A DNA stretch of 64,000 nt from NCBI GenBank assembly GCA_025352665.1, contig JANXSM010000041.1, positions 1 through 64,000 of the forward strand, read 5' to 3'. This DNA comes from Rhodospirillales bacterium (GTDB lineage: Bacteria; Pseudomonadota; Alphaproteobacteria; Acetobacterales; Acetobacteraceae). Within the stretch, counting starts at the first letter, position 1. Each line of letters opens with the position of its first letter. Below the pieces are notes generated by a model. That model worked only from the letters and a program-made list of their open reading frames with translations. It had not been told where the DNA came from and made no database searches. The position numbers were made by a program, and so were the translations under genes. Shown here in pieces: positions 10,488-57,689 of this stretch.

Positions 10488-10578
10488 GGACGTTTGGTCG
10501 CCTTATAGAGTTCTTTGGTCTCCCGTGCCGGAGCTTAGCGATCGCGGCCTCGTCGCGCTACCGTCGATTGGTAGCGCC

Positions 10579-10671
10579 AGAGCATGATCACTTCTGGTAG
10601 GCAAAGCGATCAGGCTCTAACCTTTTGTTTTAACGATCAATTTTATCGCGCGGTTGGTTCAACCTCGGGCG
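10579..10671 (+). repeat. Palindromic intergenic repeat, copy A (hairpin plus flank)
   Basis: 10579-10618 is a 40-bp hairpin with 16-bp arms and the 8-nt loop TGGTAGGC; the arms pair with about three mismatches. It is followed by a conserved flank, 10619-10671, containing TTTTAACGATCAATTTTATC and CGCGCGGTTGGTTCAACCTC. The element fills much of the gap between the sugar ABC operon start and the AhpD-like gene. The same unit recurs at 18321 and, inverted, at 35311. Confidence 0.85.
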
Positions 10672-10687
10672 ATAGTGGGCTGACGCT

Positions 10688-18320: not shown

Positions 18321-18415
18321 CTAGAGCCTGATCGCTTCTGATAGACGAAGCAATCAGGCTCTAGCAATTTGTTTTAACGAGCAATTTTATCGCGCAGTTC
18401 AATCAACCTCGGGCG
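18321..18415 (+). repeat. Palindromic intergenic repeat, copy B (hairpin plus flank)
   Basis: 18323-18362 is the 40-bp hairpin with loop TGATAGAC; the palindrome extends outward to CTAG at both ends (18321-18364). The flank at 18365-18415 carries GTTTTAACGAGCAATTTTAT and AATCAACCTCGGGCG, closely matching copy A in the same orientation. It sits in the roughly 304-bp gap (18165-18468) between the peptide-importer promoter side and the 3' end of the YncE-like gene. Apart from the repeat I see only presumed promoter DNA there. Confidence 0.87.
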
Positions 18416-18468
18416 TTATTACTCTAGATACGTAACGATTTGGCCCCGCACCCAACCGCCCTCAGCCG

Positions 18469-35190: not shown

Positions 35191-35319
35191 TGAACCCTGG
35201 GCTGGTCATCTTCGGCACCAGCAACATTTTGTCGGATCTGTTCGAGTTGCGGCAGTGGTTCGAGCTCGGCTTCACCGTTTTGCCGCATCCGAGCGCCACG
35301 GTGTCGTCGCAGGCCTGAG
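35191..35319 (+). pseudogene. Short gene remnant (unrecognised, LVIFGTSNI-type start)
   Basis: An open stretch reading NPGLVIFGTSNILSDLFELR and ending in TGA at about 35319 has coding-like composition but no start codon and only about 40 residues. It may be the N-terminal piece of a sugar-nucleotide or acyltransferase-like gene; I do not recognise it with confidence. It runs straight into the flank of repeat copy C, which suggests the rest was lost by rearrangement. Confidence 0.3.
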
Positions 35320-35404
35320 ATGGGACCAACCGCGCGATAAAATTGCTCGTTAAAGCAAAATGCTAGAGCCTGATCGTTTTGCCTACCAGAAGCGATCAGG
35401 CTCC
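35311..35404 (-). repeat. Palindromic intergenic repeat, copy C (inverted orientation)
   Basis: The hairpin is 35365-35404 with loop GCCTACCA, the complement of the copy A loop. Its flank lies to the left (35311-35362) and on the minus strand reads GCTTTAACGAGCAATTTTAT then CGCGCGGTTGG, matching copies A and B. The orientation of loop and flank therefore switch together, showing that the unit is directional. Confidence 0.85.
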
Positions 35405-35456
35405 AGGCTACCGCGCAGATCGGCCTGATGCGACGAGAGACGAAGCGCGTCCGCCG

Positions 35457-36284
35457 CTAAAACCAATGCCGGCGGAAGACGGGCGACACTCCAGACCAGT
35501 AGCCACACACGTGAGGAATCCTCCGCCAGCAGCGCTGATCAGTGCCACCGTATCCGCATCGTTCGCAATTTCGGCGCGGCTGCGCGCAGGCCGGGCTGGG
35601 GCCAGGTGAACCCGGAAAGGATGCAGATGGCCCCAGGCCAGTGGCAGTGTCGGCGTCTAAGGGTAGGTCGACCGGCGCCATCGGGGCGAAAGCATGCACG
35701 CACAGGCCAACCTCCCGCAGGATGCGCGCGTGATGCAAGGCAATGGGCGTCGGCGTGTGGCTCGGCTGACCCAGGAAGCTCGCCACCACCGCCACCCTAT
35801 GTTCGGGCCCGGCGGATCGATGCGGTGGAAGCGGCCGGATGTTACGCGCGAGATGTTCGTCGGCCAGCTGCAGGATTTCCGACGGCCAGGCTTGACGAAG
35901 CTGCGCCAGAAGCGTGTCGCGCGCACCCTCCCGGGCCAGCGCGCGCCCCCACTGGAACCTGGCGAAGGCCATCAGCTGGTCCGGATCGGTCGGCCAAAAT
36001 CCCAGCTCCGCCACCCCGGCGCCGGCCAGATGGGCGGACCCACCGGTGACGGCGAGCAGAAAGGTTTGACGCAGGAAGCCGGCCAACCCGCCTGTGGGCA
36101 CGCGGGGGCGCAGCCGGCTGGCGGTGGGATTGGCGGCCACCCGGTCCAAGGCATCGCAAAGCCACCGGATCTGATTGGCTTCATCGCCTGTGGGGTCGCT
36201 GGCCGGCCGGGCAAGACTGACCGACGCCCGCGGCTCGGTGCTCGACGACCCGCTGGTGTTAGAATTGGTGCGCCACACCAACAT
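35457..36284 (-). pseudogene. Glycosyltransferase-like gene remnant
   Basis: The open stretch (275 codons) has a central part with coding character: FQWGRALAREGARDTLLAQL, then HRVAVVASFLGQPSHTPTPI and ALHHARILREVGLCVHAF. The latter resembles the N-terminal acceptor domain of GT4-type glycosyltransferases (a hydrophobic strand, an HTPT turn, then a helix with HARxL). No donor-binding domain follows; after about PMAPVDLPLD the sequence becomes Pro/Cys-rich and non-protein-like. I read it as a truncated gene, but a small intact protein is not excluded. Confidence 0.4.
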
Positions 36285-36360
36285 TGTCGGACACCTCGCC
36301 GGGATCGCCGAGCCGATGCGCTCCGGTCACGGCCCGCTAGCAACGATGGACGTGATCCCG
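36200..36360 (+). pseudogene. Fragment of NAD-dependent sugar-nucleotide epimerase
   Basis: In this frame the sequence reads ARGSVLDDPLVLELVRHT followed by NIVGHLAGIAEPM and MDVIPL. This resembles the first half of short-chain epimerase/dehydratases, where a D-x-x-D segment is followed by VVHLAA, a partner strand and MDVN. Neither the NAD-binding GxxGxxG start nor the YxxxK catalytic part is present. The fragment ends at repeat copy D and is joined in frame to an aminotransferase fragment. Confidence 0.45.
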
Positions 36361-36364
36361 CTCC

Positions 36365-36404
36365 AGAGCCTGACTGCTTCGCCTACCAGGAGCGATCAGG
36401 CTCT
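36365..36404 (-). repeat. Palindromic repeat, copy D (hairpin only)
   Basis: 40 bp with arms AGAGCCTGACTGCTTC and GGAGCGATCAGGCTCT around loop GCCTACCA. The roughly 50-bp flank seen in copies A-C is absent. It lies exactly between the epimerase fragment and the aminotransferase fragment. Confidence 0.83.
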
Positions 36405-37058
36405 AATCCATGATGCCGCATACGCAACGGAGGCGCGCGTCGGTGGTCGCAGTCTGGACCAGGTGAACGACACTGCCTGTTTCAGCTTCTACGCCACCAA
36501 GAACCTGCCGATCGGCGAAGGCGGCATTCGCACCACGCGCCATGCCGGTATCGCCCACCTCGCCCGGAGGCTGCGCTCCCACGGGATGACCGCGGATGCC
36601 TTCGAGCGGCGCGACGCGAACTCCATGCTCTGGCAGCACTTGGACATGAAGATTCCCCGCTGTAACTACAAGATGACCGAACTCGCGGGCCTGCTCGGCA
36701 GCAGCCAACTCGCCTATCTTGATGCCTGGCGCATCCATCGCGCGGGGCTGGCCGCTGCGCGCGCAGGCCCGACACCACCCATGCCCACCATCTGTTCGTC
36801 ACCCGGCTCGACCGCTGCGACGTCGAGCGCGACATCCTGGTGCCGCGCCTTCGCGCGTGTGGCATCGAAGTCGCGGTGAACTGCCGTGCCGTCCACGAAC
36901 TGACCTGGTGCCGCGAGACCTTCGGCTAAATGGCGGGGGATTTTGCCGTGGCGCTGCATGACGGCCGCCGCTGCATCACCCTGCCGCTGCATCCGGAAAC
37001 GACCGAGAATGACGTCGACACCGTCGTGGGGACGCTGCAATCGGTGCTGCCGGAGTGG
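36405..37058 (+). pseudogene. Broken DegT/DnrJ/EryC1/StrS-type aminotransferase gene
   Basis: Three successive pieces match one family in order. First, IHDAAYATEARVGG, then ACFSFYATKNLPIGEGG (with the PLP lysine in TKN) and RCNYKMTELAGLLGSSQL. Second, after a frame change near 36755-36770 and a loss of roughly 20-30 codons, AHHLFVTRLDRCDVERDIL and IEVAVNCRAVHEL. Third, after an in-frame TAA (36927-36929, where the family usually has Tyr), GDFAVALHDGRRCITLPLHP to about 37058. The N-terminal third is missing. Such enzymes make amino-sugars for O-antigen or antibiotics; this copy cannot be functional. Confidence 0.8.
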
Positions 37059-39131
37059 TTACCCGAGCCTGTTGAGGCTCGCGAAATCGCGGTTGCTCGC
37101 AACCAGCTCCTCCAGCAGCGGGGCAGGCTGCCACCCTGCCCCGCTTTCGGCGAACATGCTGCGCACAACGTTGAGGATCGCGCCGAGACCGTGCGCGTCC
37201 GCCGTGTGCATCGGCCCCCCGCGCCAGGAGGGAAAGCCGTAGCCGTGCACCAGCACGACATCGATGTCGGACGGGCGGGCGGCGATGCCCTCCGCCAGGA
37301 TCTTGGCCCCCTCGTTCACCATGGCGGCGAGCACGCGGGTTTGGATATGCACAGCCGAGATCGGCTTGCGGCGAAGGCCGCGCTCGGCTGAGGCGCGCTC
37401 CACCAGCGCGGTCACCTCCGGATCGACCACGCGCTTACTATCCTGGTGCAAGTAATAGCCGCGGCCAGTCTTCTGGCCGAAATGTCCCTCCTCGCAGATC
37501 CAGTCGGCAATCGGAACATAGCGCTCTAGGGCGTCGCGGGTGGCTGCCAAGCGTTTGCGCTGAGCCCAGCCGATGTCGAGACCGGCGAGATCGCCGACTG
37601 CGTACGGGCCCATGGCCATGCCGAATTGTTCGAGTGCGGCATCGACCTCATGCGGCAGCGCGCCATCCTCCAGCGCGTAGTCGCATTGCTTACGCCACAC
37701 CGAGAAGATCCGGTTGCCGATGAACCCGTCGCAGATGCCGGCCACCACCGGCTGCTTGCGGATGCGTTTGGCCAAGGCGAGTGCGGTCGCCAGCACCTGC
37801 GGCGCGGTGCGCCCGGCGCGCACGATCTCCAAAAGCCGCATCACATGAGCGGGGCTGAAGAAATGGAGGCCGAGCACGCGCTCCGGGTTGTCGACCACGT
37901 CAGCCAGCAGGTCGATATTGAGATAGGAGGTGTTGCTGGCCAGGATAGTGTCGCGCCGTACCACGGTGGACAGTCGGCGGAACACATCCTGCTTGGCGTC
38001 GATGTTCTCGATGATCGCCTCGATCACCAGATCGGTATCGCGGAGGGCTGCAACATCGGTTGCGAACGACAGGTGCGCGAGGCGAGCGGCGTGGGCGGCC
38101 GCACTCAGCCGGCCGGATTTGGCCTGGCGGTCGTAGACGGTACGGATGCGCGCCTCCGCCGCCTGCATGGCGGCATCGCCAACCTCCACCAATGTCACCT
38201 CAAGGCCTGCATCGGCCATGGCGATGGCGATGCCAGAGCCCATGGTGCCGCCGCCGACGATACCGACATGGCGGACCGGCCACGGCTGGGCGTCGCGGCC
38301 TTTCGCCGCGGCCCGGTCGGCTGCGAACATGTGACGCAACGCCTTAGACTGGGCGCCGGTGCGCAGCACCTGGAAAGCGGCGTGCTCCTGCTGCAGCGCC
38401 TCGTCAAAGTCGGTGTCGAGCGCCATCGCCACGCAGCGCGCGGCCTCCGCCGGCGCCACGGCCCCGCGCGCCTTGTGAGTGATCGCGCCCAGGGCGGCAT
38501 CGAACGCCGCGCGATTCACCGGCGGCAGCGGCAGGTCGCGAATGCGCGGCAAGCGTGCGGCGTCGGCGAGCGCGCGCGCGCGGATCATCGCTGCATCCCG
38601 CACGTCTGTGGCGACCTCGTCGACGATCCCCGTGGCCAGCGCCTCGGCCGCAGGCACATGGCGGCCGGAAGTGATCATCTCGAGCGCCACCAGCGCACCG
38701 GTCACCCTTGGCAGCCGCTGGGTGCCACCGGCGCCGGGCAACAGGCCGATGCGCACCTCCGGGAAACCCACCACGCCCTCAGGCGCGATCACTCGGGCGT
38801 GGCAGGCCAGCGCCACTTCCAGGCCGCCGCCGAGCGCGGTGCCGAACATCGCGGCCACGATCGGCTTGGGGCTGTGATCCAATGCCTCACACACATCATG
38901 GGTGGTGGTTCCGCCGGGCGGCGCGTCGAACTCGCGGATATCCGCGCCGGCGATGAAGGTGCGCCCGTCGCAGGCGAGTACCCCCGCGCGCAGTCCCGGC
39001 GCCTGGGCCAGCGCCCGCACCGCCGCCACCAGCCTCTCGCGCACCGCCACCGACAGCGCGTTGACCGGGGGATGATCGATGATGATCACGCCGATGTCGC
39101 CCACATGTTCCAGCCGCACCAACTCCGCCAT
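37059..39131 (-). CDS. 3-hydroxyacyl-CoA dehydrogenase / enoyl-CoA hydratase (FadB/FadJ-like)
   Basis: 690 residues from the ATG at 39131 (MAELVRLEHVGDIGV); the upstream in-frame extension has no family similarity. The N-terminal crotonase domain has GADIREFD, GTALGGGLE (E105) and FPEVRIGLLPGAGG (E125). The dehydrogenase domain follows with VGIVGGGTMGSGIA (289-302), GLHFFSP (with the catalytic-type His) and CDGFIGNRIF. A second C-terminal dehydrogenase-like repeat has VHGYGFPSWRGGPMH. It carries out two consecutive beta-oxidation steps. Its 3' end abuts the broken aminotransferase gene on the opposite strand. Confidence 0.93.
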   Translation of the reverse strand: MAELVRLEHVGDIGVIIIDHPPVNALSVAVRERLVAAVRALAQAPGLRAGVLACDGRTFIAGADIREFDAPPGGTTTHDVCEALDHSPKPIVAAMFGTALGGGLEVALACHARVIAPEGVVGFPEVRIGLLPGAGGTQRLPRVTGALVALEMITSGRHVPAAEALATGIVDEVATDVRDAAMIRARALADAARLPRIRDLPLPPVNRAAFDAALGAITHKARGAVAPAEAARCVAMALDTDFDEALQQEHAAFQVLRTGAQSKALRHMFAADRAAAKGRDAQPWPVRHVGIVGGGTMGSGIAIAMADAGLEVTLVEVGDAAMQAAEARIRTVYDRQAKSGRLSAAAHAARLAHLSFATDVAALRDTDLVIEAIIENIDAKQDVFRRLSTVVRRDTILASNTSYLNIDLLADVVDNPERVLGLHFFSPAHVMRLLEIVRAGRTAPQVLATALALAKRIRKQPVVAGICDGFIGNRIFSVWRKQCDYALEDGALPHEVDAALEQFGMAMGPYAVGDLAGLDIGWAQRKRLAATRDALERYVPIADWICEEGHFGQKTGRGYYLHQDSKRVVDPEVTALVERASAERGLRRKPISAVHIQTRVLAAMVNEGAKILAEGIAARPSDIDVVLVHGYGFPSWRGGPMHTADAHGLGAILNVVRSMFAESGAGWQPAPLLEELVASNRDFASLNRLG

Positions 39132-39209
39132 CGCTTTGCTCCACCGCTCGCTCTTCTGTAGGATAATCTGCCCCGCAACCCAGCCGCGCGCCAGGGCCGC
39201 CGGAATTTC

Positions 39210-39238
39210 TTGACTTTGCTGCACTGCACACGTATTTG
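39210..39238 (+). promoter_or_regulatory. Candidate promoter for the RNA helicase gene
   Basis: TTGACT (39210-39215) and TATTTG (39233-39238) are spaced 17 bp apart in the 305-bp divergent gap between the FadB/J-like gene (start 39131) and the helicase (start 39437). It would leave a leader of about 190 nt, common for cold-inducible helicases. No other gene or repeat is seen in the gap. Confidence 0.4.
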
Positions 39239-39436
39239 GTCTAAGCGCCCCTTGATGTGGTTTTGTGCGCTGCCAGCCTGGAAAGACCAGATCCCGCAAA
39301 ACGGGATTGTTCCGGGCGCCAACGCTCCAGGTAGCCCTTTTCACTCAGCAATTTGCGCCGGTTTGCGGTCCTGAAGACCGCTCTCGACGTGTGTCCGCGG
39401 CTTGTGGACGTGCGTCGCCACGCGAGAGTATTTCCT

Positions 39437-40597
39437 ATGACATTCGAAGAACTCGGGCTCGTCCCGCCGTTGCTCAAGGCGCTTGCCGCCGAGGGCTACA
39501 CCACCCCCACCCCCATCCAGCTGCAGGCGATCCCGTTCGCCCTCGCCGGCCGCGACGTGCAGGGCATTGCCCAGACCGGCACCGGCAAGACCGCAGCCTT
39601 CGCCCTGCCGATCCTGCAGCGTCTGGCAGCCAACCCCAAGCGCGTCGGCCCCGGCGGCTGCCGCGTGCTGGTGTTGGCACCAACCCGCGAGCTCGCCAAC
39701 CAGATCTCTGAGAGCTTCCGCATCTACGGCAAGTTCATGAACCTCAAGGTCACCGTCATGTTCGGTGGCGTGCCGAAAGGTCGCCAGTCCCGCGCCATGG
39801 CGATGGGTGTCGACGTGCTGGTGGCGACCCCGGGTCGCCTCATGGACCATATGTCCGACCGCACCGTGCGGCTCGACCAGGTGGAAATGCTGGTGCTCGA
39901 CGAGGCCGACCACATGCTTGACCTCGGCTTTATCGTGCCAATTCGCAAGATCGTGAGCCAGATCCCAGCGCAGCGGCAGACACTGTTCTTTTCGGCGACT
40001 ATGCCGAACGAGATCGGCGGCCTTGCTGGAGCGATGCTGAAGAATCCAGCGCAGGTGGCGGTCGCACCTGTGGCCACCACTGCGGAGCGTGTCGAGCAGC
40101 ATGTCATCATGCTGGAAACCTCGCGCAAGCGTGCCGTCCTGTTCGACCTGCTGATGGGCCCAGCCGCCGGCCGCACCCTGGTGTTCACGCGCACCAAGCA
40201 CGGCGCCGACCGCGTGGTGCGTTACCTCGAGGAAAGCGGCCTGCCCGCCACGGCCATCCACGGCAACAAAAGCCAAGGCCAGCGTGAGCGCGCGCTGTCC
40301 GATTTCCGCGGCGGCAAGTGCCGCGTGCTGATCGCGACCGACATCGCCGCGCGCGGCATCGATGTCGACGGCGTCACTCATGTTATCAACTATGACCTTC
40401 CGAATGTCCCAGAGAGCTACGTCCACCGCATCGGCCGCACCGCGCGCGCCGGGGCAACCGGCACTGCCATCAGCCTGTGCGACGGCGAGGAGCGGGCCTT
40501 CCTGCGGAGTATCGAAAAGTTGATCCGCTCCAAGGTCCCGGTGATGGTACCGCCGGGTCAAGCGGCTGCCCAGGCACCTCGCGCCCGTGCCGCCTAA
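39437..40597 (+). CDS. DEAD-box RNA helicase (RhlE type)
   Basis: 386 residues from the ATG at 39437 (MTFEELGLVPPLLKALAAEGY), which begins with the Q-motif (TPTPIQLQAIP). Helicase motifs in order: I AQTGTGKT, Ia PTRELANQI, Ib TPGRLMDHM, II LDEADHMLD, III FSATMP, IV TLVFTRTKHGAD, V ATDIAARGID, VI HRIGRTARAG. It remodels RNA in the cytoplasm, in ribosome assembly or mRNA decay. The C-terminal tail is short, unlike longer RhlE proteins with basic tails. Confidence 0.94.
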   Translation: MTFEELGLVPPLLKALAAEGYTTPTPIQLQAIPFALAGRDVQGIAQTGTGKTAAFALPILQRLAANPKRVGPGGCRVLVLAPTRELANQISESFRIYGKFMNLKVTVMFGGVPKGRQSRAMAMGVDVLVATPGRLMDHMSDRTVRLDQVEMLVLDEADHMLDLGFIVPIRKIVSQIPAQRQTLFFSATMPNEIGGLAGAMLKNPAQVAVAPVATTAERVEQHVIMLETSRKRAVLFDLLMGPAAGRTLVFTRTKHGADRVVRYLEESGLPATAIHGNKSQGQRERALSDFRGGKCRVLIATDIAARGIDVDGVTHVINYDLPNVPESYVHRIGRTARAGATGTAISLCDGEERAFLRSIEKLIRSKVPVMVPPGQAAAQAPRARAA

Positions 40598-40634
40598 ACG
40601 AATGATTTCTCGACTAATTTGAAACTATAAAACA

Positions 40635-40662
40635 CGGCGAGTCACGTTGACGTGGCTCGCCG
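40635..40662 (+). terminator. Hairpin between the helicase and xylanase genes
   Basis: CGGCGAGTCACG (40635-40646) pairs with CGTGGCTCGCCG (40651-40662), with one T-G position and a TTGA loop. It may terminate the helicase message or sit in the leader of the xylanase gene. The T-rich tail lies on the minus-strand side only (TGTTTTATAG). Confidence 0.45.
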
Positions 40663-40704
40663 AACGCCTCAAGCAACTACAGCAGATTTCATCCGGAGCG
40701 CTGC

Positions 40705-41793
40705 ATGCCGCGCCTTGGCCGTCGATCACTTCTCGCAGGATCAGCGCTCGCCCTGATGGCAGCCGATACGGTGCCCGCCCTGAATGCGCGCGCAAAACGG
40801 CGCGGGCTGTTCTTTGGCTCCGCCCTCAGCGACGACACGCTGGCCAACGACCCAATGGCGACCGCCCGAGTGGACGCCGAATGCGGCATGGTGGTCGGCG
40901 AGGCCTCTTACAAATGGGCCGATATCCACCCTGCTCCGCAAACCTATGATTTCAGCCGCGCCGACGCGCTACTCAGCTTTGCCAATAGCCACGCCATCCG
41001 CACCCGCGGCCACACGCTGGTCTGGCACGAAGGCAATCCGGACTGGCTGGAGCCGACGCTGAATGCGGGCAACGCCGAGAATATTCTGACCGACCACGTT
41101 CGCACCGTCGTCGGCCACTTTAAGGGCAAGCTCGTTCACTGGGACGTGGCGAATGAGGTGATCGACCCCGATGACAAGCAGCCTCTGAAGCTGCGTCGCA
41201 CGCTGTGGCAGCGCGCTCTGGGCCCGGCCTATCTCGACATCGCCTTCCACACGACCGCAGAAACCGACCCGGGCGCGTTGCGCGTGCTGAACGATTTCGG
41301 GACCGACTACACGCTGGCGTGGCAGGAGCGCAAACGCGTGGCCCTGCTCGAACTGCTGGCCGACATGTTGCGTCGCGGCGTGCCGGTGCAGGCGGTCGGG
41401 CTGCAGGGCCATCTCGACGCCGGTGAAATCACGCTCGACCAGAACGTTATGGCGAAGTTTGTGGCCGATATCGCCTCTATGGGGCTGAAAGTGATCGTCA
41501 CCGAGCTCGACGTGCGCGACCAGCGGCTGCCCGCCGATATTTCGGTGCGCGACGATGCGGTCGCAGCTCACGCCCGCGCCTGGCTGGACGCGGTGCTGGC
41601 GAGCCCCGCAGTGCTGGGTGTGCTGACCTGGGGCATGTCGGACCGGCACAGTTGGCTGAATGACAAGTTCCCTCGCCCGGACCGGCTGACCCAGCGGCCG
41701 CTGCCGCTCGATGTTGGGCTCAACCGTAAGAAGCTGTGGTCGGCGATCGCAGCCTCGATCGACAGCGCGCCGATCCGCACCGCGATGCGGTAG
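40705..41793 (+). CDS. GH10 endo-1,4-beta-xylanase-like glycoside hydrolase
   Basis: 362 residues. The N-terminus has a Tat-type signal (LGRRSLLAGSALALMAADTV). The GH10 barrel shows RGHTLVWH, then HWDVANEVID with the acid/base E151, and VIVTELDV with the nucleophile E267; LQGHLD lies between. It should cleave xylan or related beta-glycans outside the cytoplasm by a retaining mechanism. It is a single-domain enzyme without a carbohydrate-binding module. The segment after LVWH is EGNPDW rather than the common SQxPxW, so specificity may differ. Confidence 0.9.
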   Translation: MPRLGRRSLLAGSALALMAADTVPALNARAKRRGLFFGSALSDDTLANDPMATARVDAECGMVVGEASYKWADIHPAPQTYDFSRADALLSFANSHAIRTRGHTLVWHEGNPDWLEPTLNAGNAENILTDHVRTVVGHFKGKLVHWDVANEVIDPDDKQPLKLRRTLWQRALGPAYLDIAFHTTAETDPGALRVLNDFGTDYTLAWQERKRVALLELLADMLRRGVPVQAVGLQGHLDAGEITLDQNVMAKFVADIASMGLKVIVTELDVRDQRLPADISVRDDAVAAHARAWLDAVLASPAVLGVLTWGMSDRHSWLNDKFPRPDRLTQRPLPLDVGLNRKKLWSAIAASIDSAPIRTAMR

Positions 41794-41967
41794 TGCGGAC
41801 AAAAGCGACAGAGCTGACGTAAAGCCGCGCAAAGATGACAGGATCTGATCCGGGCCCTGGTGAAGACTATCGGTGCGGGTGCCAGATCAGTAACGGTGCA
41901 GCGCACCGAAGCGCCGAAGTCTGACAAGGCCAAAGGTGGAGTTCCCTTCGACGAGCGGCAACCCTGG

Positions 41968-43068
41968 TCAGCGGCCTGCGGCCGCGGGCTGCCGGGCTTC
42001 GATCTGCTCGATCAGGAGATGGGCAAAATCCACCCAGCCCGTGTCGGAATGGGGCGCAGCCGTGCCGAGTGGGTCGGTGAGCAACCCCAGGATTGCTTGT
42101 GCCACACCATCGGCGGTGGGCGGGCACAACCGGGCGAGTGGCTCGTGCGCCAGTTGTTCGGCGAGGCCGCCGACTTCGGTCGCCACCACCCAGCGGCGGG
42201 CTGCGATCGCTGCGGCGGCGACGCCGCTCTGGCTGGCTTCGCGATGCGACAGCACCAACGCGTCGGCCCAGGCGAGGATGTTGCCGATCTCACCCTCGGG
42301 GATCCAGCGGCGATCGACCGTGACATTGGGCATGGCGCGCAGCTGCGCAAGCGTTGTTGACTCGGCTCCGAGGCCTGCGATCCGCACCTCGATATCCGCG
42401 CGCGGACCGAGCCGGCCGAGGGCGTCGGCAAACAGGTCGAGACCTTTGTAGGGCAACAGGCGGCCGAAGAAGAGCAGGCGAAGCGGTCCGCCGTGGCTGG
42501 CCGGCGGCGGGGGTGGCGGGCCAAAATTGAAGGGGGGGTGGGAGGCCACGATCAACGGCCGCCCCGCCAAAGCGTTCTGCTCGCGTAGGCGCGCCGCCAC
42601 GTGAGCTGAAAGTGCCACCAGCCCGCAGGCGCCGTCGGCGAGCCTTCGCTGCAGCTTCATCTGGAACGGAAACCCGTCGCCGGGATGGCTGTCGGCGTCA
42701 TGGATCACCACCCAATAAGGCACGCCGAGCCGGCGCAGGGCTGCTGACATCAGCAGGTCGAGCGGTGCCGGCATGGCACAGATCGCGATGTCTGGCCTCA
42801 GCGCCTGGAGTCGCTTTATCAGGCCTGGCAGCAACAACGGCATGGTCAGGATGCGGGTCATAAACCCCTGCAGTCCCGTATAGGTCGCGTAGGCAAGTTC
42901 CACCTGTGGCGGTGCTACCTGCTCCATCAACTCCGACTGCCGCGACAGCGAAAGCATGCTGACGACATTCTCAACGTGGCGCAGGCCGCCGGCGAGTTCG
43001 AGGGCAAAGCGCGGGCCAGCGCCGCGGCGGCCCCATTGCCAGACGAGAACCCTTAGAGTTCCGCGCAT
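41968..43068 (-). CDS. GT4-type glycosyltransferase
   Basis: About 366 residues. The start at 43068 (MRGTLRVLVWQWGRRGAGPRF) is 2 bp from the stop of the previous glycosyltransferase gene; a longer frame would lie entirely inside that gene. A two-domain GT-B fold is suggested: N-terminal LVWQWGRRGAGPRFALEL, then LLFFGRLLPYKGLDLFADAL starting the donor domain, and LVLSHREASQSGVAAAAIAA with VVATEVGGLAEQ at the end. Donor and acceptor are unknown. It is the last gene of a run that begins with a peptide-type ABC importer. Confidence 0.85.
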   Translation of the reverse strand: MRGTLRVLVWQWGRRGAGPRFALELAGGLRHVENVVSMLSLSRQSELMEQVAPPQVELAYATYTGLQGFMTRILTMPLLLPGLIKRLQALRPDIAICAMPAPLDLLMSAALRRLGVPYWVVIHDADSHPGDGFPFQMKLQRRLADGACGLVALSAHVAARLREQNALAGRPLIVASHPPFNFGPPPPPPASHGGPLRLLFFGRLLPYKGLDLFADALGRLGPRADIEVRIAGLGAESTTLAQLRAMPNVTVDRRWIPEGEIGNILAWADALVLSHREASQSGVAAAAIAARRWVVATEVGGLAEQLAHEPLARLCPPTADGVAQAILGLLTDPLGTAAPHSDTGWVDFAHLLIEQIEARQPAAAGR

Positions 43069-43069
43069 G

Positions 43070-44293
43070 TTACAAAAGACCCAGTGCCGCGACCGCATCG
43101 CGCAACGGCGTGTCGCCCAGGCGCTCCTGCGCCATGCGCCGGCCGGCGGCCCCGAGATGCGCTCGCAACGCCGCACTGCCGGCGAGTTCGAGCAGATGCG
43201 TCGCAGCGTCATCCACATCCGCCTCCGCCCATTCGGCTCCCGGTGCTTCGAACACGCCGCGCGGATCGGTCGCCGAGACCAGACGGTAACGCACCAGCCG
43301 GGCGGAGGATGCGTCCATGAATTCGGTGTTGGCCGACCATCCGGTGGCGATCACGGGAATGCCGAGCAGCATCGCCTCGGCGGGGACCAGGCCGAAGCCT
43401 TCGCTGCGGTGAAGCGAGAGCACAATGTCAGCGCAGGCGGTCAGCGCGTGGCGATCGGCATCGTCCCACATCCGCGTTTCGAAGCGCACATTGCCAAGGC
43501 CTGCGGCGGCGTCGCGCAAGGCGGCGAAATCAGACTCGTGCTGGGCGGTGTGGGTCACTTTGAGGAGCAATATCCGGTCCGGCCGGTCGCCGAAAGCCCG
43601 GCTATGGGCAGCGATGGCGGCGAGCGGGTTTTTGCGCGCGAAGCTGGAGGCGAGGCTGAACGAGACGAGGGTGATCAGCGCATCCGGCGGCAAGTCAAAA
43701 TCGGCGCGGGTGCGGCCCGAGGGGCGTGGCGGCGCCAGGCCGATCGCCGGGGGCACCACGCGCAGGGCGATGGGTGATCCCGGCGGCAGCAAGGTTGCAA
43801 TCGCGTCGGCGCTGAACCGAGACAGGGTCCAGATCTCGTGGACGAACGGCAGGCCGGCCCGCCAGACGGCCGGCATGGTCGGCAGCTCCCATGCCCAATA
43901 GCCGATCACCCGTCTTCCCCGCGCCAGGGCGCGCGGCAGGCGCAGCAGGGTCAGCGGCATCATCGGGCTGTTGGCATGCAGCACCAGCGGCATGCCGCGC
44001 GGCGGGATGGTGGCGATCCGAGCCGGAGCGGTGACGCTGTCGCCGGTGTCGATCGGGATGGTCGCGGCTCCCATTGCCTGCAGCGCCGCCAGCATCAGGC
44101 GCGCATTTTCACCGAGGCCGGAGGGGCGGTTGATTTCGCCGGCGAGCACCAAGCCGCCCCCCGCTGGCGGCGGCTTTCGGTCCGGCCTCGGCGCCAAGGC
44201 GCCGGTAATCGCCGCAAGCGCGCTTCGCCTGGGTCCGGCCGGCAGCAATCGCCAGGCGCGATGCTTCCAGCCGAGCGTCTCAGGCGACATCAT
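43070..44293 (-). CDS. GT4-type glycosyltransferase
   Basis: About 407 residues. ATG codons at 44293 and 44290 both overlap the stop of the ABC ATPase gene; I take the first. Features: GEINRPSGLGENARLMLAAL near the N-terminus, VIGYWAWELPTMPAVW in the acceptor domain, and HRSEGFGLVPAEAMLLGIP in the donor domain, the E-x7-E motif of GT4 enzymes. There is no signal or membrane segment. The overlap with the importer ATPase implies shared translation although the roles seem unrelated. Confidence 0.87.
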   Translation of the reverse strand: MMSPETLGWKHRAWRLLPAGPRRSALAAITGALAPRPDRKPPPAGGGLVLAGEINRPSGLGENARLMLAALQAMGAATIPIDTGDSVTAPARIATIPPRGMPLVLHANSPMMPLTLLRLPRALARGRRVIGYWAWELPTMPAVWRAGLPFVHEIWTLSRFSADAIATLLPPGSPIALRVVPPAIGLAPPRPSGRTRADFDLPPDALITLVSFSLASSFARKNPLAAIAAHSRAFGDRPDRILLLKVTHTAQHESDFAALRDAAAGLGNVRFETRMWDDADRHALTACADIVLSLHRSEGFGLVPAEAMLLGIPVIATGWSANTEFMDASSARLVRYRLVSATDPRGVFEAPGAEWAEADVDDAATHLLELAGSAALRAHLGAAGRRMAQERLGDTPLRDAVAALGLL

Positions 44294-45266
44294 TGAGGTG
44301 ACAGGCGCTTTTCTGTCCGGGCGCGATTTCGCGCAGTTTGGGGATTTCCACCTTGCAGCGCGGCATGGCGTGGGGGCAGCGCGGGTGGAAATGGCAGCCC
44401 GGAGGTGGGTGCAACGGGCTGGGCAGTTCGCCCTGGATGGCGCCGAAGTGGCTGCGGCGGTTCTCCAGTCGCGGCACCTCGGCGAGCAGCGCCTGGGTGT
44501 AGGGATGGTTGGGGTGGGAGAACACGACCTCCGCCGGCGCCTCCTCCACAATGCGGCCGAGATACATGATGGCGACGCGGTCGCTGACATGTTCGACCAC
44601 GCCGAGGTCGTGGCTGATGAACAGGCAGGTGAGGTTCAGCTCGGTGCGCAGGTCGAGAAACAGGTTGATAATCTGCGCCTGGATCGAAACGTCGAGTGCT
44701 GCGACCGACTCGTCGCAGACCAGCATGTCCGGCTGCACCGCAAGCGCCCGGGCGATGCCGATACGCTGGCGCTGGCCGCCGCTGAACTGGTGCGGGTAGC
44801 GGCGCTTCAGTGTCGGGTCGAGGCCGGCGCGGCGCATCTGGGCATCGACATAGGCGTCGAACCCTTCCGGGCCGATCAGCCCATGCACGCGCGGCGCCTC
44901 GCCAATGATTTCGGCCACGCGCAGCCGCGGGTTGAGGCTGGACTGCGGGTCCTGAAAGATCATCTGCACGCCAAGCCGGGCGGATTTCAGGGCGGCGGCC
45001 TGGAAATCCGCCCTGTCACGGCCGCGCCAGAACACTTGGCCGTCGGAGGGCTTGAGGATGCCGGCCGCGAGACGGCCGAGGGTGGATTTGCCGCAGCCTG
45101 ATTCGCCGACCAGGCCGACCACTTCGCCCGGCCGGATGCTGAGGCTGACATGGTCGACGGCGTGGACGATCGGCGCGGGTCTCTGGCCGAGCAGGCGGGA
45201 GAGGGCGCCGTTGGGTGTGCCAAAGCGGCGCGATACCTCGCGCAGCTCGATCAGGGCCTCGCTCAT
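44280..45266 (-). CDS. Peptide ABC importer ATP-binding protein (OppF/DppF type)
   Basis: 328 residues, full length for the family. Walker [10 protein letters not shown], signature [14 protein letters not shown], Walker [14 protein letters not shown] (Ser in place of the usual Pro after DE), H-loop LFISHDLGV. The C-terminal oligopeptide domain has [15 protein letters not shown] and [19 protein letters not shown], with cysteines resembling the Fe-S-type cluster region of DppF/OppF. Overlaps the DppD-type gene as ATGA. Confidence 0.93.
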
Positions 45267-46222
45267 ATGCGCACCGGATGGAAGCAGCGCAGGGTGCGGT
45301 CCGGTTCGGGCATCGTCAGCGGCGGCTCCTGGGCGCAGGTTTCGGTGGCGGCGGAGCAGCGGGTGCGAAAGGCACAGCCGGCGGGGCGGTCGAGCGGCGA
45401 TGGGGTCATGCCGGGGATCTGCAACAGCTTGGCGCCGCGTTTGTTGCGGCTGGGCACGCTGCCGATCAGCCCCGCGGTGTAATGGTGCATCGGGCGGTCG
45501 AGAACCGCGTCGACCGAGCCCGATTCAACGATACGGCCGGCATACATCACCGCCACCCGGTCCGCGAGGCCTGCGACGACACTGAGATCATGCGTGATCC
45601 ACAGCAGCGAGGTGCCGCGCTCGGCCGCCAGTTTCTGCACCACGGCAAGGATCTGCGCCTGGATGGTCACGTCCAGCGCCGTGGTCGGCTCGTCCGCGAT
45701 GATCAATGCCGGGTTGTGCAGCAGGGCGATGGCGATCGCCACGCGCTGGCGCATGCCGCCGCTGAACTGGTGGGGATAGGAGGACAGGCGTTCGTCGGGG
45801 CTGGGGATGCCGACCTGTCCCAACGCGTCGCGCGCGCGGGTGCGGGCGACGACGTGGGAGACGTTGTCGTGCGCCCGCACGGTCTCGATCCTCTGCGTGT
45901 CGATGCGCAGGACCGGGTTCAGCGTCATCATCGGGTCCTGGAAGATCATGGCAATCCTGTTGCCGCGCAGCTTGCGCAGTTCGGGCTCGGGCAGGCCGGT
46001 GATGTCGCGGCCTTGGAACAGCACCTGGCCGGACACTATGCGGCCGGGTGGGTCGACCAGACCGATGATAGAGAAGCCGGTGACGGATTTGCCGGAGCCC
46101 GATTCGCCGACGAGGCCCAGCACCTCGCCGCGGCGGACCGACAGGCTGACGCCGTCGACGGCCCGCAGGGCGCCGACGCGCGTGTCGAAATGCGTGTGCA
46201 GGTCGCGCAGTTCGAGCGTCAT
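45263..46222 (-). CDS. Peptide ABC importer ATP-binding protein (DppD/OppD type)
   Basis: About 319 residues from the ATG at 46222 ([22 protein letters not shown]), 5 bp after the permease stop; the longer frame lies over the permease gene. Walker A is GESGSGKSV, signature [14 protein letters not shown], Walker [14 protein letters not shown]. The C-terminal part has [12 protein letters not shown] and the Cys-rich [19 protein letters not shown]. It forms the ATPase dimer with the OppF-type protein. Confidence 0.93.
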
Positions 46223-46227
46223 CTCAC

Positions 46228-47148
46228 TCACCGCTGCAACCGGGGATTCAGCACATCGCGCAGCTGGTCGCCGACGAGATTGATGGCCATGATCGTTACC
46301 AGAAGCGCGATCCCCGGGTAGAAGCTGATCCAGTATTTGCCGCTGAGCATGTACTGGTAGCCGTTGGCGATGAGCAGGCCGAGCGACGGCTCGGTAATGG
46401 GCACGCCCAAACCAAGAAAGCTCAGCGTCGCCTCCAGGGCGATGGCGCGGGCGACCTGAATGGTGCCGATGACGATAAGCGGCGGCAGGCAATTGGGCAG
46501 CAGGTGACGGAACACCACGCGCCATTTCGGCAGTGCCAGGCACTCTGCCGCCTCGATATATTCGCGGGCGCGTTCGGCCAGCGCGGCACCGCGCGCGGTG
46601 CGGGCGTAGCTGGCCCATTCCACGATGACGAGGGCCAGCATGACGTTGACCACGCCTTTGCCGAGCGCGGCCAGGATCATCAGCGCCACCAAAATCGCCG
46701 GAAACGATAGCTGTAGATCAACAAGCCGCATGATCGCCGCTTCCACCCGCCCGCCGGCGTAGGCGGCGGTGAGCCCGAGCGAGGTTCCAACCAGCCCCGC
46801 CACGAGCGCCGAGCCGGCGCCGACGATAAGCGAGATGCGCAGGCCGTAGAGGATGCCAGACAGCATGTCGCGGCCCTGGTCGTCGGTGCCGAGCCAGAAT
46901 GTGAGACCGTCGGCCGAGCTGGATCCGGGTGGCAGGCGGCCGTCCATGATGTCGAGCTGGGCAAGGTCGTACGGGTTCTGCGGCGCGATCAGGGACGCGG
47001 TAACAGCGAGCAGGATGATGACGACGATCACCACCAGGCCGGCTATGGCGACGGGGCTTTGGGCGAAGTCGCCGGCGATGCGCGCGAATGGCGACTGCTC
47101 GCGTGGCCTCGCCCGAGGTGCTGCCACGGGCTTTTCAAGAACCGCCAT
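46228..47148 (-). CDS. Peptide ABC importer permease (DppC type)
   Basis: 306 residues. Typical DppC features: a single N-terminal helix (VAIAGLVVIVVIILLAVTAS), then LTFWLGTDDQGRDMLSGILYG, the EAA loop REYIEAAECLALPKWRVVFRHLL and a final GDQLRDVLNPRLQR. Stop and start of the two permease genes share bases as TGATG at 47146-47150. Confidence 0.93.
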   Translation of the reverse strand: MAVLEKPVAAPRARPREQSPFARIAGDFAQSPVAIAGLVVIVVIILLAVTASLIAPQNPYDLAQLDIMDGRLPPGSSSADGLTFWLGTDDQGRDMLSGILYGLRISLIVGAGSALVAGLVGTSLGLTAAYAGGRVEAAIMRLVDLQLSFPAILVALMILAALGKGVVNVMLALVIVEWASYARTARGAALAERAREYIEAAECLALPKWRVVFRHLLPNCLPPLIVIGTIQVARAIALEATLSFLGLGVPITEPSLGLLIANGYQYMLSGKYWISFYPGIALLVTIMAINLVGDQLRDVLNPRLQR

Positions 47149-48122
47149 CAGGCACGTCCTCCCAGCCGGACGCGCGGGTCGAGTGCCGTGTAGAGAAGGT
47201 CGACCACCAGGTTGATGGTGACGAACATCACCACCACGATCATCAGGTAGGCGACGATGACAGGGCGATCGAGCACGTTGATGCTGTCGATGATCAGCTT
47301 GCCCATACCCGGCCAGGCGAACACGCTTTCCGTCACCACCGAGAAGGCGATGGTGCTGCCGAGCTCGAGCCCGACCACGGTCACCACGGGAATGAGGATG
47401 TTGCGCAGCACGTGCACAAATACCACCCGCGTCGGCGACAGGCCCTTGGCACGGGCGAAACGGATGTAGTCGAGCGGCATGGTCTCGCGCACACCCGCGC
47501 GGGCGAGGCGGAGCACGAGGGAGATGTTGAACAGCGACAGGTTGAGCGCCGGCAGGACCAGATGCGCCAGCCCATCACGCGTCAGGAACGACCATTGCAC
47601 GCCGAACAGTGCCGCCGTGGTGCCGCGGCCGGAGCTGGGCAGCCAGCCGAGGCTGACCGCGAACACCATGATGAGCATGAGCCCGACCCAGAACCCCGGC
47701 AGCGAAAAGCCCAGGATGCTGCCGGCCATGACGGCGCGGCCGGCGAAGCTGTTGGGATACAGCCCCGCGAACAGGCCCAGCGGCAAACCCACCAGCACCG
47801 ACAGCAGCACGGCGGTGACGGCCAGCTCCAGCGTCGCGGGCATGCGCTGCAGGATCAGTTGCAGCGCCGGCTCGTTGAACACGAAGCTGCGGCCGAGGTC
47901 GCCGTGCAGGGCGCCTTGCAGGAAGTAGGCGTATTGCTGCCAAAGGGGTTTGTCGAAACCGAGTTGGGTGATGATGCGCGCTCGCTCCGCCTGGTCGGCC
48001 TCGGGCGAGATCAGAATGTCGACGGGATTGCCGATGGCGTGCAGGCCGATGAACACGATCAGCGACATCGCCAACATGACGAACATGGCCTGGAGCAGCC
48101 GGCGCAGAAACCAAAGGAGCAT
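47148..48122 (-). CDS. Peptide ABC importer permease (DppB type)
   Basis: 324 residues. DppB hallmarks: MLLWFLRRLLQAMFVML start, LHAIGNPVDILISPEA, then LGRSFVFNEPALQLILQRMP, and the EAA loop DYIRFARAKGLSPTRVVFVHVL. Six membrane segments are predicted. The start shares bases with the binding-protein stop (TGATG), implying coupling. Confidence 0.93.
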   Translation of the reverse strand: MLLWFLRRLLQAMFVMLAMSLIVFIGLHAIGNPVDILISPEADQAERARIITQLGFDKPLWQQYAYFLQGALHGDLGRSFVFNEPALQLILQRMPATLELAVTAVLLSVLVGLPLGLFAGLYPNSFAGRAVMAGSILGFSLPGFWVGLMLIMVFAVSLGWLPSSGRGTTAALFGVQWSFLTRDGLAHLVLPALNLSLFNISLVLRLARAGVRETMPLDYIRFARAKGLSPTRVVFVHVLRNILIPVVTVVGLELGSTIAFSVVTESVFAWPGMGKLIIDSINVLDRPVIVAYLMIVVVMFVTINLVVDLLYTALDPRVRLGGRA

Positions 48123-49699
48123 CAGTTTGCGGGACGCAGGTCGTAGGCGCGGGTTTCTTCGTCGGCGCGCGGCACGTAGGTGAAGCCGGCGCGGGTGGCC
48201 CAGGTGTTCTTCTGGTTGTGCAGTGGGATGATCGCGACGTCGTCCATAGCCATTCGCGTGGCCTGGATCAGCAGCGCCTCGCGCGCGCCGTCATCGGCGG
48301 TTGAGACCGCCTTGTCGATCAGGCTGTCCAGTGCGGGGTTGGAATAGCGGCCGCGATTGACGGTGCCGCGACCCTTCGCGGCATCGAAGGTCGCGACCAG
48401 GGCGCGCAAAGGATTGGACGCCTCACCCGAGCTGATCGACCAGCCCTGCAGGAACACAGAGTATTCGAGCTTGGTGGCATGGCCGGCATAGCTCGACCAG
48501 GGCTGTGTCTCAACCGCGGTCTGCACGCCGATGCGCGTCCACATCTGGCCGATCGCCTGGACGATCTTGGCATCGTTCAGGTAACGGTCGTTGGAGCCGT
48601 GCAGGGTGATTTTGAGCCCGTTCGGAAACCCGGCAGCGGCCAGCAAGGCCTTGGCCTTGGCGATGTCGGTGGGCGGCGGCACCAGGCCGGGCACATAGGA
48701 GAAGCTGCCGGGGGGCAGGAACTGGGCGGAGGGGATCGCAGCGCCTTCCATCACCCGCTGGACGATGGCCGGTCGGTTGATGGCGATCGACAGCGCCTGG
48801 CGGACACGCAAATCCTTCAGCGGGTTCTTTGCCAGGATCTCACCGTTCGGGCCGGTGACAAAAGGCGTTGGGCCATCACGGCCCTGGTCGAGCGCGAGAT
48901 AGATGATGCGCAGCGATACCGTTTCCCACAGCGAAACGCCCTTGTCGGCGCGCAGGCGGGCGATGTCGGCGGTTGGCACCTGGTCGATCATGGCAACGTC
49001 GCCGGACAGCATGGCGGCGGTGCGGGCGGCGTCGTTGGTGATCATGCGGTAGGTGATGTGCTGCCAGGCCGGCTTGGTGCCCCAGTAGCCGTCGTTGCGC
49101 TCGAGCTCGATGCGGTCGCCCGGTTTGTAGGAGACGAAGCGGTAGGGCCCGGTGCCGATGGCGTTCTTGCCGGAGTTGAAATCCTCCGTGGTCGGGTTGG
49201 CGCCCAGCTTGTGCGGAATGATGAACAGCTGGGCGAGATCGGTGGGCAGCAGCGGATAGACGTTCGCGGTACTGAGGCGGATTGTGTGCGCATCGACGAT
49301 CTCCACGCCGGTGATCGGCCTGGTGTAGATCGCGAAGCTGCCAGGGCTGTTCACCACGGTCGGCACGCGGGCGATGGTGTATGCGACATCCTCGGCTGTG
49401 AACGGCGTGCCGTCGTGGAAGCTGGCATCGCGCAGCTTGAGCTCCCAAGTGCGGTCGTCGACGAGCTTCCAGCTGGTCGCCAGGCCCGGCATTGGGCGCG
49501 CCTGGGCGTCGGTTTCGACCAGCCGCTCGAACACATTCGCGTCAAGCGAGGTGTTGGGGGTCAGCGTGTAGTAATGCGGGTCGATGCTGCCGACGGCGGC
49601 ACCGACCGCGACCGTGACGTTTTGCGCAAGAGCGTTGCTGGCAGCGACTGGTACAGCCGCCATCAGCAGCGAGCCGATGGCCACACCCTTGAACCGCAT
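48122..49699 (-). CDS. Peptide ABC importer substrate-binding protein (SBP family 5)
   Basis: 525 residues. A Sec signal is visible (VAIGSLLMAAVPVAASNALA, cleavage likely after ALA). Family 5 features: GSIDPHYYTLTPNTSLDANV, LATSWKLVDDRTWELKLRD, FHDGTPFTAEDVAYTIAR and RVRQALSIAINRPAIVQR. It is the first gene of the operon, with GGGAGG about eight bases before the ATG. Given the divergent deacylase/peptidase operon, the ligand may be a peptide or acylated amino acid, which is inference only. Confidence 0.92.
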   Translation of the reverse strand: MRFKGVAIGSLLMAAVPVAASNALAQNVTVAVGAAVGSIDPHYYTLTPNTSLDANVFERLVETDAQARPMPGLATSWKLVDDRTWELKLRDASFHDGTPFTAEDVAYTIARVPTVVNSPGSFAIYTRPITGVEIVDAHTIRLSTANVYPLLPTDLAQLFIIPHKLGANPTTEDFNSGKNAIGTGPYRFVSYKPGDRIELERNDGYWGTKPAWQHITYRMITNDAARTAAMLSGDVAMIDQVPTADIARLRADKGVSLWETVSLRIIYLALDQGRDGPTPFVTGPNGEILAKNPLKDLRVRQALSIAINRPAIVQRVMEGAAIPSAQFLPPGSFSYVPGLVPPPTDIAKAKALLAAAGFPNGLKITLHGSNDRYLNDAKIVQAIGQMWTRIGVQTAVETQPWSSYAGHATKLEYSVFLQGWSISSGEASNPLRALVATFDAAKGRGTVNRGRYSNPALDSLIDKAVSTADDGAREALLIQATRMAMDDVAIIPLHNQKNTWATRAGFTYVPRADEETRAYDLRPAN

Positions 49700-49728
49700 C
49701 CCGCATCCTCCCGTCAGATTCCCGTGAT

Positions 49729-49837
49729 CCTAAGCAGAGTTGCGCTGACACGCCAACGGACTGCATTTCAAAGAGCGTGTCAGCGCAGCCCTGCTTAGGT
49801 TTTGTGAAGACCGCAAACTGCGAAAGTTTGCTCACAA
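49729..49837. promoter_or_regulatory. Two dyads in the divergent promoter region
   Basis: Between the binding-protein start (49699, minus) and the ArgE-like start (49894, plus) lie two inverted repeats. The first has 25-bp arms with two mismatches: 49729-49753 (starting CCTAAGCAGAG) and 49775-49799 (ending CTGCTTAGG). The second is nested: TTGTGA (49802-49807) and TCACAA (49832-49837) enclose GCAAACT (49813-49819) and AGTTTGC (49825-49831). They could be regulator sites or leader RNA structures controlling both operons. Confidence 0.5.
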
Positions 49838-49893
49838 GGCTCACTGATGCGGCCTACAGTTGCAGGGTGGCGTGTTCTGGATAAAGTGTCGCA

Positions 49894-52055: not shown

Positions 52056-52099
52056 GTTCAGCGTGAGCCTGTGCGTGCATCCGTACCACATCCGGGTCC

Positions 52100-56337: not shown

Positions 56338-56343
56338 TATATT

Positions 56344-56383
56344 AGAGCGTGATGACGTCGCCTATCAGACGTCATCACGCTCT
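56344..56383 (-). repeat. Palindromic repeat, copy E (perfect hairpin)
   Basis: Perfect 16-bp arms (AGAGCGTGATGACGTC and GACGTCATCACGCTCT) around loop GCCTATCA. The loop and outer AGAGC/GCTCT match the other copies, but the inner stem differs in sequence while keeping full pairing. It lies between converging genes, overlaps the TAG stop of the dctA-like gene and has no 50-bp flank. It could end transcription from both sides. Confidence 0.87.
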
Positions 56384-57689
56384 AGCGGCTGACGGCTTCC
56401 CCATCCAGTACCCGGCGCATTCGTGGCGCGTCCAGCGCGTTCTCCCATTTCGAGACCACGATGGTCGCCACCGCATTGCCGATCAGGTTGGTCGGTGTCA
56501 GCCCCTCCGACATCAGGCGGTGAATGCCGAGCACTAGGCCGACGCTCGCGACCGGAATGGTGCCGACCGAGGACAGTGTCGCCGCCAGCACCACAAAGGC
56601 GGCGCCGGCGACGCCCGCGGCGCCCTTGGAGGCCAGCAACAGCACTGCAAGCAGCCCGACCTGCTGTTCCCAGCCGAGTGGCGTATTGGTGGCCTGCGCC
56701 AGAAACACCGCGGCGAAGGCGAGATACAAGCAGGTGCCGTCGAGATTGAATGAATATCCGGTCGGCACCACCAGACCTACCACGCCCTCCTCGCAGCCCA
56801 GCGCCTCCATCTTGGCGATCAGCCGCGGCAGCACGGTTTCGGACGAGGTGGTGGCGAACACGATCAGCAGTTCCTCGCGGATATAGCGGATCAGCTTAAA
56901 CAGGCTGAAGCCGCACAGCCGCGCCACGGTGCCGAACACCACGGCCACGAACAGGATGCAGGTAAGATAGAACCAGCCCAGCAAGGCTGCCAGCGACCAC
57001 AGCGAGGCGGCGCCGTAGCGGCCCACGGTGAAGGCGATGGCGCCGAACGCGCCGATCGGCGCCGCCCACATCACGATGGCAACCGCGCGGAACAGCATCT
57101 GCGACACCGCCCCGACCAGGGTGACCACGGGACGGCCCGCAGCGCCCATCAAGGTCAGCGCGAAGCCTGCGATGACGGAGATCAGCAGCACCTGCAGCAC
57201 ATTGCCCTCGGCAAACGCGCCGGCGATGGTGTTGGGGATGATGTTCATGAGGAACGAGACGACGCCCACGTCATGCGTCTGGGCCGCGACCGACTTCACC
57301 GCGGCCGAGTTCAGCGTGCTGGCGTCCACGTTCATGCCAACGCCAGGATGGGTGAGGTTGACCGCCACCAGGCCGAACACCAGGGCGATGGTGGTGACAA
57401 CTTCGAAATACACCAGCGCCTTCACGGCGACCCGGCCGACCTTGGCCATGTCGCCCATACTGGCGATACCGTGCACGACGGTGCAAAAGATGATCGGTGC
57501 GATCAGCATACGGATCAGCCGGATGAAGCCGTCGCCGAACGGCTGCATGGCAGCCCCTGTCTCGGGAGCGAAATGGCCGACGAGCACGCCGAGCAGCATC
57601 GACAGCATCACCCAGGCCCAAAGCTGCTGCCACCATGGCCGGGTGCTGCGGGGCACGCCCACCGGTGCATGCGCGACGCTGCCGCTCAT
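56382..57689 (-). CDS. Dicarboxylate/amino acid:cation symporter (DctA-like)
   Basis: About 435 residues from the ATG at 57689, coupled to the upstream amidohydrolase stop by ATGA. DAACS-family marks: FIRLIRMLIAPIIFCTVVHG, IVFATTSSETVLPRLI (the serine-rich re-entrant loop), VVPTGYSFNLDGTCLYLA and the NxxGNxxAT-type NLIGNAVATIVVSKWE near the end. Eight membrane segments plus two re-entrant loops fit. It imports C4-dicarboxylates or similar acids with protons or sodium. Confidence 0.92.
   Translation of the reverse strand: MSGSVAHAPVGVPRSTRPWWQQLWAWVMLSMLLGVLVGHFAPETGAAMQPFGDGFIRLIRMLIAPIIFCTVVHGIASMGDMAKVGRVAVKALVYFEVVTTIALVFGLVAVNLTHPGVGMNVDASTLNSAAVKSVAAQTHDVGVVSFLMNIIPNTIAGAFAEGNVLQVLLISVIAGFALTLMGAAGRPVVTLVGAVSQMLFRAVAIVMWAAPIGAFGAIAFTVGRYGAASLWSLAALLGWFYLTCILFVAVVFGTVARLCGFSLFKLIRYIREELLIVFATTSSETVLPRLIAKMEALGCEEGVVGLVVPTGYSFNLDGTCLYLAFAAVFLAQATNTPLGWEQQVGLLAVLLLASKGAAGVAGAAFVVLAATLSSVGTIPVASVGLVLGIHRLMSEGLTPTNLIGNAVATIVVSKWENALDAPRMRRVLDGEAVSR

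Follow-up and report, generated by a model that had tools for sequence, protein, structure and literature searches.

A palindromic repeat between two sugar-gene remnants of an Acetobacteraceae genome: a deletion that probably ended inside a composite MITE

The RUP (repeat unit of pneumococcus), a MITE mobilised by IS630-Spn1, is an element of approximately 107 nt that is found in around 100 copies, has TA termini, and shares its genome with a partner insertion sequence of the IS630 family. The RUP forms strong hairpins, and its elements insert into one another (PMC2229807, PMC3049150, PMC10969869). The Correia/NEMIS elements of Neisseria, of approximately 107 and 155 nt, also have TA termini and inverted repeats, and reach a high copy number (PMC2229807). 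A further type of repeat, the REP elements, consists of short palindromes present in high copy number in the bacterial chromosome (PMC3733652).

The window analysed here is a stretch of 64,000 nt, which is part of a 70.6-kb contig (G000:C57) in a draft genome of 5.27 Mb and 177 contigs. A palindromic repeat at positions 36349-36405, which contains repeat copy D, bridges the remnants of an NAD-epimerase gene and a DegT-type aminotransferase gene in a single open frame (ORF 36175-36879, plus strand), with no stop across the repeat, as a preliminary description of this DNA had stated. The two fragments were then thought to be unrelated, albeit both assigned to the synthesis of surface sugars. The assignment holds, and the fragments prove to be neighbours. 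Among 398 genomes of the family, the only complete homologous locus was found in G170, from another genus, which has close relatives of both gene halves, although its reference proteins are only approximately 50-55% identical to the remnants. In G170, the epimerase (332 aa, L047:8002-9000) overlaps the aminotransferase (401 aa, L047:8997-10202) by 4 nt, and these are followed by a hexapeptide acetyltransferase (L047:10206-10901) and a convergent glycosyltransferase (L047:10867-12441). Remnants of all four genes are present in the window:

35202..35312, plus strand: hexapeptide acetyltransferase remnant, residues 9-23 joined to approximately 95-118 (tblastn with L047:10206-10901, E=2e-4 for each piece)
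35637..36155, minus strand: glycosyltransferase remnant without the C-terminal part (30% identity to residues 12-208 of L047:10867-12441, E=1e-18)
36196..36354, plus strand: NAD-dependent epimerase remnant, approximately residues 50-102 of 332 (tblastn with the G170 epimerase, L047:8002-9000, PF01370; 49% identity, E=4e-11)
36406..36756, plus strand: first part of the DegT/DnrJ/EryC1 aminotransferase remnant, from residue 154 of the G170 protein (PF01041, E=1e-21; 54% identity to L047:8997-10202)
36774..37058, plus strand: second part of the aminotransferase remnant, in another frame, with an internal TAA at approximately 36927 (tblastn, residues 291-382 of the G170 protein at 36774-37049)

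The order in the window is acetyltransferase remnant, repeat copy C, glycosyltransferase remnant (minus strand), epimerase remnant, copy D, and aminotransferase remnant, and the order and strands of the epimerase and the aminotransferase are the same as in G170. As far as their sequences tell, the four genes are a single surface-sugar gene cluster, which is decaying here. The 3' part of the epimerase and the 5' part of the aminotransferase, approximately 1.1 kb (1,145 nt in G170 coordinates), are missing at D, which bears out the earlier proposal that intervening DNA had been deleted.

It is very improbable that the draft assembly joined two separate places through a high-copy repeat, even with 177 contigs and more than 200 similar repeats, given that the genes on the two sides are neighbours within one cluster, correct in order and strand, that only around 57 nt of repeat lie between them, and that neither gene half has a further copy with a close match in this assembly. 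The aminotransferase remnant changes frame near 36757-36774, has its TAA at approximately 36927, and ends at approximately 37058, where it abuts the 3' end of a 3-hydroxyacyl-CoA dehydrogenase gene. With its frameshift and stop, this downstream remnant marks the locus as a pseudogene rather than a fusion gene. That the frame, open as it is across the repeat, encodes a working fusion protein is hardly conceivable, since the epimerase lacks its Rossmann start and the aminotransferase its first 150 or so residues, the frameshift and the TAA lie downstream, and a counterpart of the fusion, intact and conserved, was not found in the 398 family genomes.

No repeat copies were found flanking or inside the intact G170 locus, the kind of locus in which the preliminary description had suggested looking for them around the full-length genes, or in seven same-genus loci around the 3-hydroxyacyl-CoA dehydrogenase. 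The absence of the repeat from related loci had been named as grounds for abandoning the earlier reading, and such absence is indeed found, at one intact locus and the seven same-genus loci, although it shows only that the insertions are lineage-specific. At the cut-off used, no orthologous intact locus was found in the same genus. The Acetobacteraceae MAG with the closest named relative of the aminotransferase (L031) was considered as a second intact locus and dropped, as its contig stops at the start of this gene, which leaves the epimerase side unreadable.

The acetyltransferase remnant (35202-35312) has an internal in-frame deletion of approximately 70 residues, with a junction that is free of any repeat, so that a MITE is not required for decay in this cluster. 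On the other side of the locus, positions 37059-52606 are probably inverted, over approximately 15.5 kb, relative to four same-genus genomes. In these genomes, a BenE-type transporter and further genes come after the 3-hydroxyacyl-CoA dehydrogenase gene, directly or, in one genome, with one extra gene in between, and the counterparts of the transporter and these further genes start at 52606 in the window, in the opposite orientation. One breakpoint coincides exactly with the end of the aminotransferase remnant, and a remnant at the other (52140-52606) may be a fragment of a chloride-channel-type membrane protein.

The repeat belongs to a family with several subfamilies, of which the first, sub1, is a MITE of approximately 107 nt, with around 100 copies in the genome. 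Its consensus, obtained from the alignment of fetched copies, is TAGAGCCTGATCGCTTC-TGGTAGGC-GAAGCGATCAGGCTCTA, followed by a 65-nt tail that contains a second hairpin and ends in GCTCTA, and a full copy has a DNA fold with z=-9.6. The 16-nt sub1 arm has 108+106 matches per genome at up to three mismatches, in comparison with 8+5 for a reversed-pattern control, an excess that sets the repeat apart from chance. The arm of the second subfamily, sub2 (AGAGCGGGATGACGTC), has 173+179 matches at the same threshold (control, 30+32), and sub2 copies are probably more numerous than those of sub1. Outside D, the window contains:

10578..10674, plus strand: repeat copy A, a sub1 MITE with a diverged tail end
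18322..18429, plus strand: repeat copy B, a full-length sub1 MITE
35313..35405, minus strand: repeat copy C, a sub1 MITE without the last 13 or so nt of the tail, adjoining the acetyltransferase remnant (the tail matches 52 of 65 consensus positions)
56343..56384, no strand assigned: a solo sub2-type hairpin with TA at both ends

Sub2 and a third subfamily (with AGAGCATGATCCGCGC arms) have their ends and loop in common with sub1. Across the regions L053-L115 and L162-L221, the subfamilies retain these ends and the loop, and their stems differ yet match internally, which suggests selection on the hairpin rather than on its sequence. Hybrid hairpins with one sub1 arm and one sub2 arm, joined at the common loop, occur in L070, L081:868, L111, and L112, and are a sign of exchange between copies.

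The family consists of short, non-coding elements in many dispersed copies with the same ends, and has terminal inverted repeats (TAGAGC...GCTCTA), as is typical of MITEs. Most copies have a TA on either side. Of 73 copies, 58 have CT before the left arm, whereas the right end is a TA, after which comes G in 24 copies, A in 13 and T in 1 (G or A in 37 of the 38 scored). This pattern suggests that a TA is duplicated at the target, mostly within CTAG. In L054, the loop of a sub1 hairpin contains a nested sub2 MITE, and an 8-nt loop is restored when this MITE and one TA are taken out of the sequence. One TA is altered in other nested copies, such as L091 and L094. Such MITEs inside other MITEs (L054, L068, L091, and L094), several of which lie in a hairpin loop, can be used as internal empty-site controls. 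The same genome contains IS630-type elements with DDE_3 (PF13358), L118 (approximately 1,061 bp) and L119 (approximately 1,058 bp), which have the ends CTAGAGC...GCTCTAG, and the end that they have in common with the MITE, TAGAGC, is short (6-7 nt or so). Given the TA/CTAG termini, the nesting in L054, and the matching ends of the IS630-type elements, an IS630-type MITE is the best reading of the family. In seven genomes of the same genus, sub1 is either rare or not detected, but it is present in other genera (in G079 and G032, for example), which points to a recent expansion or a sideways arrival. A literature search with the repeat sequence returned a single, unrelated match, and the family seems to be undescribed in the literature searched.

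The repeat at D is larger than the hairpin first described, because it includes half an arm pair from the second subfamily. Its parts are:

36365..36404, minus strand: repeat copy D, a complete sub1 MITE hairpin without the tail, with its TA terminus at 36404-36405 (3 mismatches to the 40-nt consensus; DNA hairpin fold z=-3.6)
36349..36364, no strand assigned: half of a sub2 MITE hairpin, consisting of a complete 16-nt arm (GACGTGATCCCGCTCCAG, 1-2 mismatches to sub2 arms), with the loop and the other arm gone
36349..36354, plus strand: GACGTG, common to the epimerase (Asp-Val codons) and the sub2 arm, the microhomology at the junction (TMDV in the protein alignment with G170, and matched by the sub2 arm as DNA)

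On the right, in the plus orientation, GCTCTA is followed directly by ATCCATGATGCC, with an exact MITE terminus at the TA, and ATCCATGATGCC reproduces the ALIHDAA of the aminotransferase as in G170. This reads as a normal insertion border in the aminotransferase gene. The left border is not a terminus. Here, the tail of D is replaced by GACGTGATCCCGCTCCAG, which breaks off at the edge of the loop and meets the epimerase at GACGTG. The half arm (36349-36364) ends where the loop should start, no partner arm was found for it, and the only other match to GACGTGATCCCGCTCCAG in the 64-kb window, at up to three mismatches, is the true family member at 56343-56384. We rejected a reading of the bases left of D as epimerase, since they match the sub2 arm and lack the Asn-Leu-Leu-Gly found after Met-Asp-Val in G170.

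The preliminary description had offered, as a simple reading, recombination between two repeat copies that once flanked different genes, which at this locus would be homologous recombination between a copy in the epimerase and another in the aminotransferase, with the loss of the intervening DNA and the retention of a single copy. One copy does remain exactly at the junction, in a genome that is rich in copies, and copies do exchange, as the hybrid hairpins of L070, L081, L111, and L112 attest. The product of such recombination should, however, keep both outer termini, whereas D has one intact terminus (TA 36404-36405), and the hairpin on its epimerase side, from another subfamily, is cut at the loop. 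The arms of D itself belong to one subfamily and pair together, and a second deletion would be needed to account for the left border, so that an origin of this kind is unlikely.

Insertion sequences are known to cause deletions of adjacent DNA, and the perfect terminus on one side of D would be in keeping with a transposition-linked event, in which insertion and the loss of the neighbouring DNA occur in one act. Such a deletion would start at the terminus of the element, whereas the deleted side ends here inside a hairpin of a different subfamily, which makes this course quite unlikely.

A deletion that ended inside a composite MITE probably fits D better than recombination between two flanking copies. 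What remains is a pair of gene stubs, adjacent in a relative, with an intact TA terminus on one side of the repeat and a cut hairpin on the other, and the events may have occurred in the following order. An IS630-type sub1 MITE would have entered the aminotransferase gene at a TA, and a sub2 MITE hairpin would have become nested in it, in the arrangement seen in the intact analogue L065, where a first hairpin, a sub2-type hairpin, and a sub1 tail follow one another (hairpin1-hairpin2-tail1). A later deletion, of approximately 1.1 kb plus MITE sequence, would have fused the epimerase, at GACGTG, with the identical bases at the edge of the loop in the nested hairpin, leaving one complete hairpin and one half hairpin between two gene stubs. 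The deletion may have been caused by hairpin extrusion, or by replication past the hairpin, with 5-6 nt of microhomology. No strain with the MITEs and without the deletion was found, and we thus infer the intermediate. The epimerase stub is short, which counts against the model, and the GACGTG microhomology, of 5-6 nt, includes a base that is presumed for the undeleted gene (G170 has GATGTC).

As such, D is an ordinary kind of genome decay, and the bias toward hairpin loops is only a mildly new point. A census of arms in some 123 fetched regions and the window recovered 316 arm matches, 23 of them without a partner. Once nested insertions and weak matches are removed, the clear unpartnered cases break in or at the loop, either into flanking DNA (D, L095, L104, and L170) or into another part of a MITE, as internal joins (L098, L184, L188, and L200), and no break in the middle of a partner arm was found among the clear cases of these regions and the window. 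The break in L104 cuts short a gene for an HpcH/HpaI aldolase (L104:71-727), which covers positions 10-184 of the 221 in the profile. This is a second gene truncated at a hairpin loop, and half a MITE hairpin with a tail takes the place of its 3' end. Copy C has one broken end, in the tail rather than the loop. The loop bias is only a lead, because the sample is small and was selected by way of well-preserved arms, in a test that had not been planned beforehand. It is a tentative and rather doubtful proposition that the hairpin loops of the MITEs are preferred deletion end-points in this lineage, with their recent expansion driving gene loss through breakage or slippage at single extruded hairpins rather than through recombination between copies. 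In E. coli, SbcCD cleaves the hairpin at a chromosomal palindrome, one that is much longer (PMC3315005). By analogy, SbcCD may play a role at these MITE hairpins.

The junction at D provides a sequence-level view of the scar left by a high-copy MITE in a decaying operon. Two routes of repeat-linked deletion can be told apart in this way, given that recombination between copies leaves two termini, and breakage at a single hairpin leaves half a hairpin. Should a larger sample uphold the loop bias, the fragile sites of bacterial genomes would include small MITE hairpins.

The palindrome of REP elements has GTAG or CGTC as the tag at its foot, whereas the family described here has CTAG or TTAG, with the TA as the end of the element, and its full elements, unlike REP, have a tail and IS630-like termini. 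The Correia/NEMIS elements resemble the family in size, TA termini, inverted repeats, and copy number, and belong to a different host. The closest in build is the RUP, which the family matches in size, copy number, TA termini, IS630 partner, strong hairpins, and nesting, although the sequence and the host are unrelated, and, unlike the RUP, the family combines a GC-rich hairpin with 16-bp arms and a tail hairpin, and its several subfamilies differ in their stems but share the loop.
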